64,000 nt of DNA from Nocardioides seonyuensis. GTDB taxonomy: Bacteria; Actinomycetota; Actinomycetes; Propionibacteriales; Nocardioidaceae. The position numbers and the translations under genes are program-made. The stretch's first letter is position 1. Every line of letters starts with the position of its first letter. A model generated the notes under the pieces. That model saw only the letters and a list, made by a program, of their open reading frames with translations. It was not told where the DNA came from and ran no database searches. The DNA is taken from positions 2,914,001 through 2,978,000 of the forward strand of contig NZ_CP038436.1 of the NCBI RefSeq assembly GCF_004683965.1, given 5' to 3'. Of the stretch, positions 632 to 5,047 are shown in pieces.

Positions 632-1531
632 GTGGCGACCTTCGTCGAAGGCCCCGTGAGGGTCTCCGTCCCCGCAACCGCTGCCAACCTCGGCCCCGGG
701 TTCGACTCGTTGGGGCTCGCGCTCTCCCTGCACGACGAGCTGCTCGCCGAGGTCACGCCCGACGGCCTGGAGATCGACGTGAGCGGCGAGGGCGCCGGCA
801 GCGTCCCCCTCGACGAGTCGCACCTGGTGGTGCGGGCCATGCGCGCGGCCTTCGACCTGATGCAGGCCGAGCCGTCCGGGTTGCGGCTGGAGTGCCGCAA
901 CGCCATCCCGCACAGCCGGGGGCTCGGGTCGTCCTCGGCCGCGATCGTGGCGGGGGTGACCCTCGCACGCGCCCTGGTGGCGGGCGGCCAGCTGCTGCTC
1001 TCCGACGAGGCTCTCTTCGATCTTGCGGCCGACCTCGAGGGACACCCCGACAACGTGGCGCCCGCCTTCTACGGCGGCTTCGTCATCTCCGGCCGGGAGG
1101 ACGGGCGGTGGTACGCCGTGGCCTCGGGGGTCGACCCGCGCGTCACGCCGGTCGTCTTCGTCCCGCCGACCCCGGTGTCGACCGAGCATGCCCGCAGCCT
1201 GCTGCCCGACGTCGTGCCCCACTGCGACGCAGCCTCCCAGGCCGGTCGTACGGCGCTGCTCGTCGCCGCGCTCGCGGGTCAGCCCGAGCACCTCCTCACC
1301 GCGACCCGCGACTGGCTGCACCAGGAGCAACGCCGGTCCGCGATGCCCGACACCCTGGCGCTGGTGGACTCCTTGCGCGCCGACGGCATCCCGGCGGTGG
1401 TGTCGGGGGCAGGACCGGCTGTGCTCGCCTTCGCGGCGGCGGACACCTCCCGGCTCACCCGTCGATGTCCTCGAGGCTGGGTCGCACACGCCCTGGCGGT
1501 CGAGGCCGCCGGCGCTCGCCTGCTAGCCTGA
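632..1531 (+). CDS. thrB: Homoserine kinase
   Basis: A 299-residue GHMP-family kinase that phosphorylates homoserine for threonine synthase encoded just upstream. The N-terminus has the VSVPATAANLGPGFDSLGLA signature (residues 11-30). The ATP-binding motif IPHSRGLGSSSAA lies at about 92-104, and a C-terminal GAGP segment (VSGAGPAVLAF) matches the third GHMP motif. The GTG at 632 is chosen because it directly follows the thrC stop and gives a full-length family N-terminus. The following 122 bp hold no gene; they include a TAGCCT hexamer at 1524-1529 that could serve the rho transcript. Confidence 0.96.
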   Translation: MATFVEGPVRVSVPATAANLGPGFDSLGLALSLHDELLAEVTPDGLEIDVSGEGAGSVPLDESHLVVRAMRAAFDLMQAEPSGLRLECRNAIPHSRGLGSSSAAIVAGVTLARALVAGGQLLLSDEALFDLAADLEGHPDNVAPAFYGGFVISGREDGRWYAVASGVDPRVTPVVFVPPTPVSTEHARSLLPDVVPHCDAASQAGRTALLVAALAGQPEHLLTATRDWLHQEQRRSAMPDTLALVDSLRADGIPAVVSGAGPAVLAFAAADTSRLTRRCPRGWVAHALAVEAAGARLLA

Positions 1532-1653: not shown

Positions 1654-3504
1654 GTGACCGAGACCCCCGAGAACACTCCCGCACCCTCCGCCGCAGCGGA
1701 CGCGCCGCCGGCCAAGAAGCGTGGAGGTGGGCTGAACGCCATGCTGCTGGCCGACCTGAAGTCCATGGCCGCCGGGCTCGGAATCGCGGGCGCGGGTTCG
1801 ATGAAGAAGGCACAGCTCGTCGAGGCCATCAAGAACCAGGGCACGCCGGTGAGCAAGCCGGCCCGGACCGATCAGCGCGCGACGAAGGACGAGCCGACCA
1901 CGCCGCCCGCCCAGGAGCGTGCTGCCGAGTCGACCGGCTCAACGGACTCGCAGGAGGCCGGCAAGCAGGACTCGGGCAAGCAGGACTCTGGCAAGCAGGA
2001 CTCTGCCAAGCAGGACTCTGCCAAGCAGGACTCGGGCAAGCAGGACTCGGGCAAGCAGGACTCGGGCAAGCAGGACTCGGGCAAGCAGGAGCGTGCGAAG
2101 CAGGACCGGTCGAAGGGACAGCAGGCCCAGCAGAAGCAGGAGCGCCAGGGCAAGCAGGACCAGTCCCGGCAGGACCAGGGCAAGCAGGACCAGTCCCGGC
2201 AGGACCAGGGCAAGCAGGACCAGTCCCGGCAGGACCAGGGCAAGCAGGACCAGTCCCGGCAGGAGCAGGGCAAGCAGGACCAGTCCCGGCAGGACCAGTC
2301 CCGGCAGGACCAGGACCAGTCCGGGGACGACGACGGTGAGGGCGGGAGCCGCCGCAACCGCCGCCGTCGCGGGCGCGAGCGCCAGGCGCCCCGCGTCGGG
2401 CGCAACGAGCCCGACACCACGATCCTCGAGGACGACGTCCTGGTTCCCGCAGCCGGAATCCTCGACGTGCTGGACAACTACGCGTTCGTCCGCACCTCCG
2501 GCTACCTGCCTGGCAGCGAGGACGTCTACCTCTCGTTGTCGATGGTCCGCAAGTTCGGCCTGCGCAGGGGTGACGCGGTGGTCGGCCAGGTGCGCCAGCC
2601 ACGCGAGGGGGAGCGCCGCGAGAAGTTCAACCCGATGGTGCGCGTCGACAGCGTGAACGGCGCCGACCCCGAGTCCGCGCGCGAGCGCCCGGAGTTCACG
2701 AGCGCGACGCCGGTCCACCCTCACCAGCGCTTGCGGCTGGCGACCGACTCCACGGACGTGACCGGCCGGGTCATCGACATCGCCGCACCTGTCGGCAAGG
2801 GTCAGCGCGGCCTGATCGTGACGCCGCCGCGAGCCGGCACGACCTCGATCCTGCGCTCGCTCGCCGCGTCCGTCACCGCCAACAACCCCGAGTGCCACCT
2901 CATGGTCGTGCTCGTCGGTGCGCGGCCCGAGGAGGTCACCGACTTCCGGCGGGCAGTCAAGGGCGAGGTCGTCGCCTCCACCTTCGACCTCCCGCCCGCC
3001 GACCACGTCCTGGTCTCGGAGCTGGCCATCGAACGGGCCAAGCGACTCGTCGAGCTCGGTCACGACGTCGTCGTGCTGCTCGACTCGCTGACCAGCCTGG
3101 GCCGCGCCTACAACCTGGCGGCACCTGCCAACGGCCGGCTGCTCGCCGGCGGAGTCGACGCCTCCGCCGTGCACCCTCCCAAGCAGCTCTTCGGGGCCGC
3201 TCGCAAGCTGGAGGATGCAGGCTCCCTGACGATCCTCGCCTCCGTGCTCGTGGAGACGGGGTCGGCCACCGACGAGCTGTTCTTCGAGGAGCTGCGCGGC
3301 ACGGCCAACCTCGAGCTGCGCCTGAGCAGCGAGCGCGCTGCCCAGGGCCTGGTGCCAGCCGTCGACCCCGCCAGGTCCGGCACCCGCCACGAGGAGAAGC
3401 TGCTGGCGCCTGCCGAGGGTGCCGTGGTCGGAGACCTCCGCCGCAAGCTCGCCGACGCCACCACCCAGCAGGCCGTGGAGAAGCTCGTCGCCAGCTCGCG
3501 CTGA
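1654..3504 (+). CDS. rho: Rho-family transcription terminator homologue with degenerate ATPase site
   Basis: A 616-residue Rho homologue at the normal actinobacterial rho locus (thrB-rho-rpmE-prfA). Order: a helical Rho_N-like segment (about 25-70); a charged low-complexity insert (about 104-228) built of KQDSG and GKQDQSRQDQ repeats; a cold-shock-type primary RNA-binding domain (about 260-345, containing YAFVRTSGYLPGSEDVYLS); then the RecA-like motor. By eye against E. coli and Streptomyces Rho, key motor residues differ. Walker A reads PPRAGTTS (Lys to T396). The DERPEE motif reads GARPEE (catalytic Glu to A423). DSITR reads DSLTS (R to S481). The R-loop basic residue is A538, and the RKIAEKR stretch reads SERAAQG (R353 equivalent G565). 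The Walker B Asp (D477) and the final GTR arginine remain. Known Rho is an ATP-driven helicase; I infer this copy binds RNA but is ATPase-dead. Confidence 0.9.
   Translation: MTETPENTPAPSAAADAPPAKKRGGGLNAMLLADLKSMAAGLGIAGAGSMKKAQLVEAIKNQGTPVSKPARTDQRATKDEPTTPPAQERAAESTGSTDSQEAGKQDSGKQDSGKQDSAKQDSAKQDSGKQDSGKQDSGKQDSGKQERAKQDRSKGQQAQQKQERQGKQDQSRQDQGKQDQSRQDQGKQDQSRQDQGKQDQSRQEQGKQDQSRQDQSRQDQDQSGDDDGEGGSRRNRRRRGRERQAPRVGRNEPDTTILEDDVLVPAAGILDVLDNYAFVRTSGYLPGSEDVYLSLSMVRKFGLRRGDAVVGQVRQPREGERREKFNPMVRVDSVNGADPESARERPEFTSATPVHPHQRLRLATDSTDVTGRVIDIAAPVGKGQRGLIVTPPRAGTTSILRSLAASVTANNPECHLMVVLVGARPEEVTDFRRAVKGEVVASTFDLPPADHVLVSELAIERAKRLVELGHDVVVLLDSLTSLGRAYNLAAPANGRLLAGGVDASAVHPPKQLFGAARKLEDAGSLTILASVLVETGSATDELFFEELRGTANLELRLSSERAAQGLVPAVDPARSGTRHEEKLLAPAEGAVVGDLRRKLADATTQQAVEKLVASSR
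1963..2082 (+). repeat. Eight 15-bp tandem repeats inside the Rho-family gene
   Basis: Eight in-frame copies of a 15-bp unit encode KQDSG, with two copies reading KQDSA. The repeats sit in the low-complexity insert ahead of the RNA-binding domain. Near-identity at DNA level makes the tract prone to slippage, so its length may vary between strains. Confidence 0.95.
2149..2298 (+). repeat. Five 30-bp tandem repeats inside the Rho-family gene
   Basis: Five in-frame copies of a 30-bp unit encode GKQDQSRQDQ (one copy ends QEQ), followed by a partial SRQDQ copy. Together with the upstream 15-bp repeats they form a roughly 125-residue hydrophilic tract rich in Lys, Gln, Asp, Ser and Arg. Confidence 0.95.
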
Positions 3505-3630
3505 CACTGCGCGACGAGGAATGTGCGGATTGGCGCCGCTGTTGGACCCGGTGGCACACTTGTGCGTCGGTTCCGGTTCACGTCGTTCGCATCCGCGCGA
3601 GGACGACCCGGAGCAATCGAGAGGACACCC

Positions 3631-3879
3631 ATGAAGAAGGACATCCACCCCGACTACGTCGAGACCCAGGTGACCTGCACCTGCGGTGCGTCGTTCACCA
3701 CCCGCAGCACCGCGACCTCCGGCTCGATCCGCGCCGACGTCTGCTCGCAGTGCCACCCGTTCTACACCGGCAAGCAGAAGATCCTCGACACCGGCGGCCG
3801 CGTCGCCCGCTTCGAGGCCCGCTACGCCAAGAAGGCGCCGGCGAAGGCTGCCGACCAGGACGCTGCAGAGAGCAAGTAG
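3631..3879 (+). CDS. rpmE: Large-subunit ribosomal protein L31 (zinc-type)
   Basis: An 82-residue L31 of the 50S subunit. It begins MKKDIHPDY and carries four cysteines (C16, C18, C38, C41) in the CxC...CxxC pattern of the zinc-binding C+ form, followed by [17 protein letters not shown], the family hallmark. The ATG at 3631 is chosen because it gives the conserved N-terminus and has GAGAGGA a few bases upstream; the open frame extends further 5' but that part is not L31. The C-terminus has a short charged tail. The C+ form implies dependence on zinc; a C- paralogue, if any, is not in this window. Confidence 0.97.
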
Positions 3880-3888
3880 CCCTGCACC

Positions 3889-3923
3889 AGCGCCGACCCC
3901 CCGCACTGCGGGCGGTCGGCGCT
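3889..3923 (+). terminator. Hairpin after rpmE
   Basis: A perfect 10-bp inverted repeat, AGCGCCGACC (3889-3898) with GGTCGGCGCT (3914-3923), encloses a smaller CCGCA/TGCGG stem. It is followed by CCTCATTTTC. It lies between the rpmE stop and the prfA start and fits an intrinsic terminator or attenuator with a weak U-run. Confidence 0.7.
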
Positions 3924-3973
3924 CCTCATTTTCAGCGCATCAGTCGCCGGACACCCGGCAGAAGGAGCACACC

Positions 3974-5047
3974 GTGTTCGAGGCCGTCGCCGGGCTCGCG
4001 AACGAGCACGCCGAGCTCGAGATGCGCCTGGGGGCCCCCGAGACCCACGCCGACCAGCGACTGGCCAAGCAGCTCAACCAGCGCTACGCCGAGCTCTCGG
4101 CCGTGCTCGCCACGTGGCGTGAGTGGCTCGCCCTGGGGGGCGACATCGACGCCGCCCGCGAGCTCGCCGCCGACGACCCGGCGTTCGCCGCCGAGGCCGA
4201 CGAGCTCACCGCGCGGCGTGCGACGGTCGAGGAGAGGCTGCGCCACCTCCTCGTGCCCCGCGACCCGACGGACGCCAAGGACGCCATCGTCGAGGTCAAG
4301 TCGGGGGAGGGTGGTGAGGAGTCAGCGCTGTTCGCCGGTGACCTCCTCCGCATGTACTCCCGGTTCGCCGAGACCCGCGGGTGGCGTACCGAGATCCTCG
4401 ACGCCACCGAGTCCGACCTCGGCGGCTACAAGTCCGTGACGATGGCGGTCAAGGCCAAGGGCACCCCCGCGCCGGGAGAGGCGCCCTACGCCCTGCTGAA
4501 GTTCGAGGGCGGCGTGCACCGCGTCCAGCGAGTGCCGGTGACCGAGTCCCAGGGTCGCGTGCACACCTCTGCGGCCGGAGTGCTCGTGATGCCGGAGGCC
4601 GAGCAGGTCGACGTCGTGGTCGACGACAACGACCTGCGCATCGACGTCTTCCGCTCCAGCGGCCCGGGTGGTCAGAGCGTCAACACCACCGACTCCGCAG
4701 TCCGGATCACGCATGTGCCGACAGGCATCGTCGTCAGCTGCCAGAACGAGAAGTCGCAGCTGCAGAACAAGGAGTCCGCTATGCGGATCCTGCGTGCCCG
4801 GCTGTTGGCGGCGGCCCAGGAGGAGGCCGACGCCGAGGCCAGTGAGGCACGCAAGAGCCAGATCCGCACGGTGGACCGGTCCGAGCGGATCCGCACCTAC
4901 AACTTCCCCGAGAACCGCATCTCCGACCACCGCACGGGCTACAAGGCCCACAACCTCGACACCGTCCTCGACGGCGAGCTGGGGCCTGTCATCGACAGCG
5001 CCGTGACCGCCGACCTCGAGGCGCGCCTCGCGTCGTTGGAGGAGTGA
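3974..5047 (+). CDS. prfA: Peptide chain release factor 1
   Basis: A 357-residue class I release factor reading UAA and UAG. The stop-codon recognition tripeptide is PVT (188-190, in [13 protein letters not shown]), the RF1-type PxT and not the RF2 SPF. The catalytic GGQ loop is at 232-234 in [18 protein letters not shown]. The GTG at 3974 is preferred over longer in-frame starts because it is preceded by AGAAGGAG and gives the standard RF1 length. The stop overlaps the GTG of prmC by 4 bases, coupling the factor to the enzyme that methylates its GGQ glutamine. Confidence 0.97.

Follow-up and report, generated by a model that had tools for sequence, protein, structure and literature searches.

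The rho gene of the window, the whole stretch of 64,000 nucleotides from Nocardioides seonyuensis that was analysed, encodes a Rho protein from which residues of ATP catalysis have been lost, and the same residues are missing from 34 close relatives. We consider it probable that this protein is a motorless Rho, that is, a true rho orthologue turned pseudo-ATPase, which selection maintains for RNA binding without ATP and which probably still acts on the transcription complex. What argues for such an ATP-independent role is that purifying selection acts on a Rho present in one copy, with its predicted fold and most of its RNA cleft preserved and catalysis lost. Rho is generally regarded as a motor that runs on ATP and cannot do its work without translocating.

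The rho open reading frame (1654..3504, forward strand, as are all window features given below) starts with GTG and encodes 616 amino acids, and by its residues the protein appears catalytically dead. Its match to the Rho equivalog profile TIGR00767 covers residues 27-613 and scores 493 bits, slightly below the curated cut-off of 509, while its score against NF006886 (PRK09376, Rho) is 448, well above the cut-off of 315. Pfam matches comprise Rho_N (PF07498, residues 27-62, 1732..1839), Rho_RNA_bind (PF07497, residues 267-340, 2452..2673), which is the primary RNA-binding site and is conserved, and the ATP-synt_ab nucleotide-binding domain, so that the protein carries all three parts (Rho_N, Rho_RNA_bind and a RecA-like core) by which Rho orthologues are recognised. 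Its AlphaFold model (mean pLDDT 89.5, pTM 0.88) predicts a complete fold, for which the best PDB matches in Foldseek are E. coli and M. tuberculosis Rho, with TM of about 0.9.

The gene order at the window is thrC-thrB-rho-rpmE-prfA-prmC, these being the names that we assume for the neighbours of rho, and thrB-rho-rpmE-prfA is what we take to be the standard locus. Upstream lies thrB (homoserine kinase, 632..1531). Downstream follow an rpmE-like (L31) frame, 3631..3879 within 3523..3879, its start inferred from the motif MKKDIH, and prfA (release factor 1), 3974..5047 within the open reading frame 3686..5047, with an inferred GTG start. The order thrC-thrB-rho-prfA is conserved: in 113 of the 113 loci of testable length, thrC, thrB, rho, prfA, prmC, sua5 and wecA (where present) are collinear.

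Residues were numbered after E. coli Rho by alignment. In the window protein Lys184 is replaced by T396 within a Walker A remnant, PPRAGTTS (residues 391-398, 2824..2847), and D210 and the catalytic E211 by G422 and A423 (2917..2922). Arg269 has become S481 (3094..3096), where Arg is still found in 33 of the 35 genomes of the clade; K326 of the R-loop has become A538 (3265..3267); and R353 has become G565 (3346..3348), with Gly in 34 of the 35 clade genomes and Asp in one. Retained are T397 (T185), R424 (R212), D477 (the Walker B residue D265, 3082..3084) and R578 (R366). Among the residues expected of an active motor, Lys184, Glu211 and Arg353, the last of which we take to be a nucleotide pocket residue, are therefore gone, and Asp265 and Arg366, presumably the arginine finger, are present. 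Position 326 is also non-basic (Thr) in M. tuberculosis Rho and so is not by itself diagnostic of motor loss. All of the positions that we take to form the RNA cleft keep their residues (Y62, F64, R66, D78, Y80, E108, F110). Every residue change named in an earlier note made from the letters of the window (T396, A423, A538 and others) was borne out by alignment to E. coli Rho, and from these residues the protein would be expected to have no ATPase activity.

The earlier note had seen the loss in a single genome. It proves to be real, but that view was too narrow. K184, E211 and R353 are all absent from 35 of 35 genomes of the window's own clade (the window genome and 34 relatives), a grouping made by at least 78% sequence identity plus the shared losses. 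The rho cores of all 35 were read over at least 98% of their length and contain no stop. Nocardioides furvisabuli JCM 13813 and Nocardioides sp. Root122 are among the named isolates that have lost these residues too. A sequencing or assembly error in the window genome, which would make the loss an artefact, is thereby extremely improbable, as the triple loss is shared by 34 further genomes and occurs in strains of different sources and assemblies, and this explanation was rejected. Of the 159 columns with a conservation of at least 95% among 74 intact Rhos, the 35-genome clade departs from only nine (62, 148, 184, 211, 288, 306, 319, 353 and 355), and the clade's replacements at 62 and 288 are absent from the window's own protein. 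Three of nine conserved ATP-site columns (those of K184, E211 and R353) are replaced against six of 150 others (Fisher p 0.009, which is indicative only, the list of ATP-site columns having been picked after the alignment was seen). Tyr62 of the RNA cleft is Cys in 32 of the 35 genomes, with Tyr in the window protein, so the cleft itself is not wholly preserved in the clade.

Only one Rho is present in the genome, which is a single contig of 3.97 Mb and 100% complete. The search for a second rho with intact GKT and DERPEE, as the earlier note had advised, was made with TIGR00767 over this complete genome and found no second Rho: rho matches at 3.9e-148, and the other matches are weak (5.9e-18, 3.7e-8 and 6.6e-4). 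The first of these is a FliI/YscN-type ATPase, and the other two, at about 14.2 and 11.6 kb in the window (about 11 and about 8 kb downstream of rho), are by appearance ATP synthase subunits. When the core protein was used as query, 211 of the 215 genus genomes gave a match at E <= 1e-60, with one match each among the best nine candidates scored per genome. A subunit that serves as a decoy for another, active Rho or poisons it would account for the selective loss of catalysis, but such a reading has next to no chance of being right where the only other profile matches are the export-type ATPase and the two ATP-synthase-like proteins; it is contradicted in this complete genome, and a single match is found in 211 of 211 matched genus genomes. 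As to what the earlier note had proposed, retention without a motor is supported and poisoning of a second Rho is contradicted. The FliI/YscN-type export ATPase is encoded at L002 1336-2997 on the reverse strand, and the genome may have flagellar genes.

The loss is not confined to the window's clade. A total of 175 Nocardioidaceae rho genes were read, 130 of them from the same genus, with at least 93% of the core covered in 164 and 72% in the lowest. K184 is absent from 72 of the 175 and from 62 of the 130 in the genus, in a sample biased by design towards low TIGR00767 scorers and genes close to the window protein, supplemented by the 30 best scorers and some intact relatives. High scorers outside the 175 were presumed intact, and for the genus the count is a lower bound of at least 62 among the 211 genomes with a match. 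Both K184 and E211 are absent from 42 of the 175. Other lineages carry GRT, GIT, GNT or GTT P-loops with E211 retained, and R353 is missing with K184 and E211 kept in 28 of the 175, three of these being just truncated there; loss of R353 only is possibly a first step towards motor loss, or else an adapted pocket. Retained throughout are D265 and T/S185 (175 of 175), R212 (126 of 126), and F64, Y80 and R66 (174 of 174 Rhos readable at these positions).

A host tree was built from thrC, thrB, prfA, prmC and sua5 of 126 genomes; it was searched quickly, several of its branches are long and not all of its rows are complete. On this tree K184 changes 14 times, at least 11 of them forced by well-supported starred branches, E211 three times and R353 15 times. 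The window's clade, 31 of whose 35 members are in the tree, forms one starred branch (99) within a 38-genome group (support 93), all 38 members of which are without K184. A comparison of 11 independent pairs for correlated loss gave 3.3 against 0.8 for R353 with K184 and 5.7 against 1.0 for K326, neither being significant, and E211 hardly ever differs within independent pairs. Outside the family, TIGR00767 finds a match in 305 of 308 Actinomycetes genomes, every one of them above the cut-off; the weakest stands at 3.4e-173 and the rest at 1.3e-183 or better. This was a screen of scores rather than residues, which a gene with a single K184 loss can still pass. Among 80 named loci, K184, E211 and R353 are kept in 74, and the six exceptions are all labelled Nocardioides. 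Loss of the motor residues is so far restricted to Nocardioidaceae among the Actinomycetes screened by score. The alignment of Nocardioidaceae orthologues thus extends the earlier finding to 34 close relatives with the same losses and to recurrent loss in the family, some lineages having lost a partial set. We put forward tentatively, as somewhat more likely wrong than right, the wider proposal that Nocardioidaceae have repeatedly made their only Rho motorless, that the Rho of the window's clade is a fixed, essential-like ATP-independent transcription or RNA factor, so that selection would preserve nothing but the ATP-independent activity of Rho, and that ATP-driven termination is absent from whole clades of free-living, GC-rich bacteria.

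Selection on rho was estimated by dN/dS (NG86) on the rho core. In 12 close pairs of the clade without motor residues, three of which are drawn from the same three genomes, the ratio is 0.00-0.07 for the rho core, 0.03-0.12 for prfA and 0.06-0.23 for thrB; rho lies below prfA in nine of the 12 pairs and slightly above it in three. The deep pair G000/G338 gives 0.22 for rho, 0.27 for prfA and 0.25 for thrB. Elsewhere the rho ratio is 0.00-0.26 in ten intact pairs, 0.02-0.16 in eight other pairs without K184 and 0.05-0.13 in three without R353. In three genomes the rho core shows zero amino acid differences despite synonymous change. The RNA-binding block has a mean pairwise identity of 98.3% in the 35 genomes of the clade against 83.6% among intact Rhos, and at matched prfA identity (0.85-0.95) the RNA-binding domain stands at 0.99 against 0.92; this high identity is partly due to the clade being a single, fairly young one. 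For the motor part at the same prfA identity, the values are 0.90-0.91 in the clade, 0.83-0.94 in intact Rhos and 0.71-0.83 in the other lineages without K184, where the pattern would fit relaxed constraint on the motor part.

These data bear on the alternative that Rho-dependent termination has become dispensable in the family and that rho is being hollowed out on its way to loss, what remains being slow decay. The many changes on the host tree (14 for K184 and 15 for R353) speak for it, as does the motor part of the other lineages without K184, at 0.66-0.71 identity against 0.77-0.83 for intact Rhos at prfA identity 0.80-0.90, most of these pairs spanning separate losses. We nevertheless regard it as unlikely, since none of the 175 genomes has a stop codon in the part of the core that was aligned (frameshifts outside these stretches would be missed), the dN/dS of the inactive Rhos lies below that of prfA in nine of the 12 close pairs, and no genome is convincingly without rho. 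The rho of the window's clade bears none of the marks of a pseudogene (stops, frameshifts, dN/dS near 1). The earlier view that the gene is retained without a motor rather than decaying, for which dN/dS in Nocardioidaceae had been proposed as a check, is supported by the low ratios and by conservation across the clade, with motor inactivity read from the residues.

As to genomes without rho, prfA was used as a probe in 14 family genomes without a good rho match, and none of the 14 is a convincing case. In seven (G245, G334, G017, G027, G039, G009, G052) only a distant release-factor paralogue matches prfA, and in two (G331, G035) nothing does; with no close prfA match in these nine assemblies, among them fragmented ones, the rho region is missing from the assembly. 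In four (G321, G026, G169, G167) prfA lies too close to a contig end to show whether rho is beside it. The last, the fragmented metagenome-assembled genome G062 (L243 1-1500), has a histidine-kinase-like frame before rpmE-prfA and no rho between them; this arrangement, which would favour a rho on its way to loss, is possibly a loss, a rearrangement or a chimera. In G316, which is 70% complete and has K184 intact, rho is split over two frames.

The residues that remain in the nucleotide pocket raise a further alternative, a slow or unusual ATPase that still terminates transcription, with R181 or some other group replacing K184 and another residue replacing E211. R181 is invariant across all 35 genomes of the clade, T185, R212, D265 and R366 are kept there (D265 in 175 of 175 Rhos read), and in several lineages K184 has become Arg with no change at E211 and R353. 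The P-loop of the clade is close to fixed as PPRTGxT, so the pocket may retain a structural or ligand-binding role, and with the four retained residues it might still bind nucleotide, or hydrolyse ATP slowly by some atypical mechanism. This alternative is quite unlikely, however, because three catalytic residues are lost together in the clade, and the replacements vary among small residues (A, T or V at 184; T or A at 211), as fits lost constraint on catalysis.

The window protein has a linker of some 200 residues, in which Q, N, S, G and charged residues are abundant. Its repeat-coded part (1960..2313, Tandem Repeats Finder) consists of KQDSG and KQDQSRQDQG repeats and is presumably disordered; 15- and 30-base tandem repeats encode it. 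RNA assemblies have been proposed for some Rhos with disordered inserts, and an RNA-condensing or storage protein, in which such a linker and the RNA-binding domain, one of the best-conserved parts, assemble on RNA under stress, was considered. It is very unlikely: intact relatives have similar linkers, which means that the linker does not go with loss of the motor. In a comparison that took in 113 of the 175 genomes, those matched by the motif used, linker length and composition are alike in the inactive clade (34 genomes) and in intact Rhos (36 genomes), with no clear difference.

For the motorless Rho that we favour, ATP hydrolysis and therefore RNA translocation would be gone, but the protein would keep its fold, retain most of the primary RNA-binding cleft and probably still assemble as a ring. 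As the sole Rho of the cell, under strong purifying selection for a task that needs no ATP, it might form a static RNA-bound ring or an open ring on C-rich nascent RNA and RNA polymerase, and influence elongation, pausing or RNA packaging without pulling. A static ring on the elongation complex is favoured because the locus, the RNA cleft and the NusG contact loop are kept; RNA binding, ring formation, contact with RNA polymerase and the cellular role are all inferred.

Several known systems resemble this one in part. With E. coli and M. tuberculosis Rho (7oqh; TIGR00767) the window protein shares gene order, domain layout, predicted fold, most of the RNA-binding cleft, the Walker B Asp, R212 and R366, but it is without K184, E211, R353 and the basic R-loop residue and scores slightly below the cut-off. 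The short form paralog_Rho2 (NF041509) is likewise a divergent Rho family, but the window protein scores 467 against its cut-off of 628, and its gene sits at the usual rho locus with no second copy found; identity with paralog_Rho2 was ruled out. F1 alpha, a pseudo-ATPase subunit, is also a RecA-like ring protein that has kept its fold and lost catalysis. Its P-loop still has the Lys, and it functions next to an active partner, whereas no active Rho partner was found for the window Rho. Finally, E. coli Rho reportedly inactivates RNA polymerase without translocation, a Rho activity that would need none, although E. coli Rho is also a motor and the window Rho is without motor residues.

If Rho has no motor, it must be asked how transcripts are ended in these GC-rich bacteria. 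The Rho-contacting loop of NusG is unchanged in 30 of 30 genomes, with no sign of co-loss; this fits ordinary termination equally well, and S10 is bound by this loop as well. At convergent gene ends no increase in terminator-like hairpins was seen: they were found in 15 of 52 gaps of two genomes with inactive Rho against 7 of 28 in one with intact Rho (p = 0.80), an underpowered comparison of three genomes made with a home-made gene caller and mononucleotide shuffles; a first run with a poorer gene caller gave 6/15 and 6/16 against 5/17.

With 42 of 175 family genomes lacking both K184 and E211, to call such genes 'termination factor Rho' on the strength of homology only may be misleading. In lineages with a selected motorless Rho, the ATP-independent activity of Rho can be put to the test directly, and close relatives with an intact Rho can serve as controls. 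The two groups differ also at position 266, presumably a bicyclomycin contact, which is Gly in 51 of 74 intact family Rhos and Ser in 35 of 35 Rhos of the window's clade.
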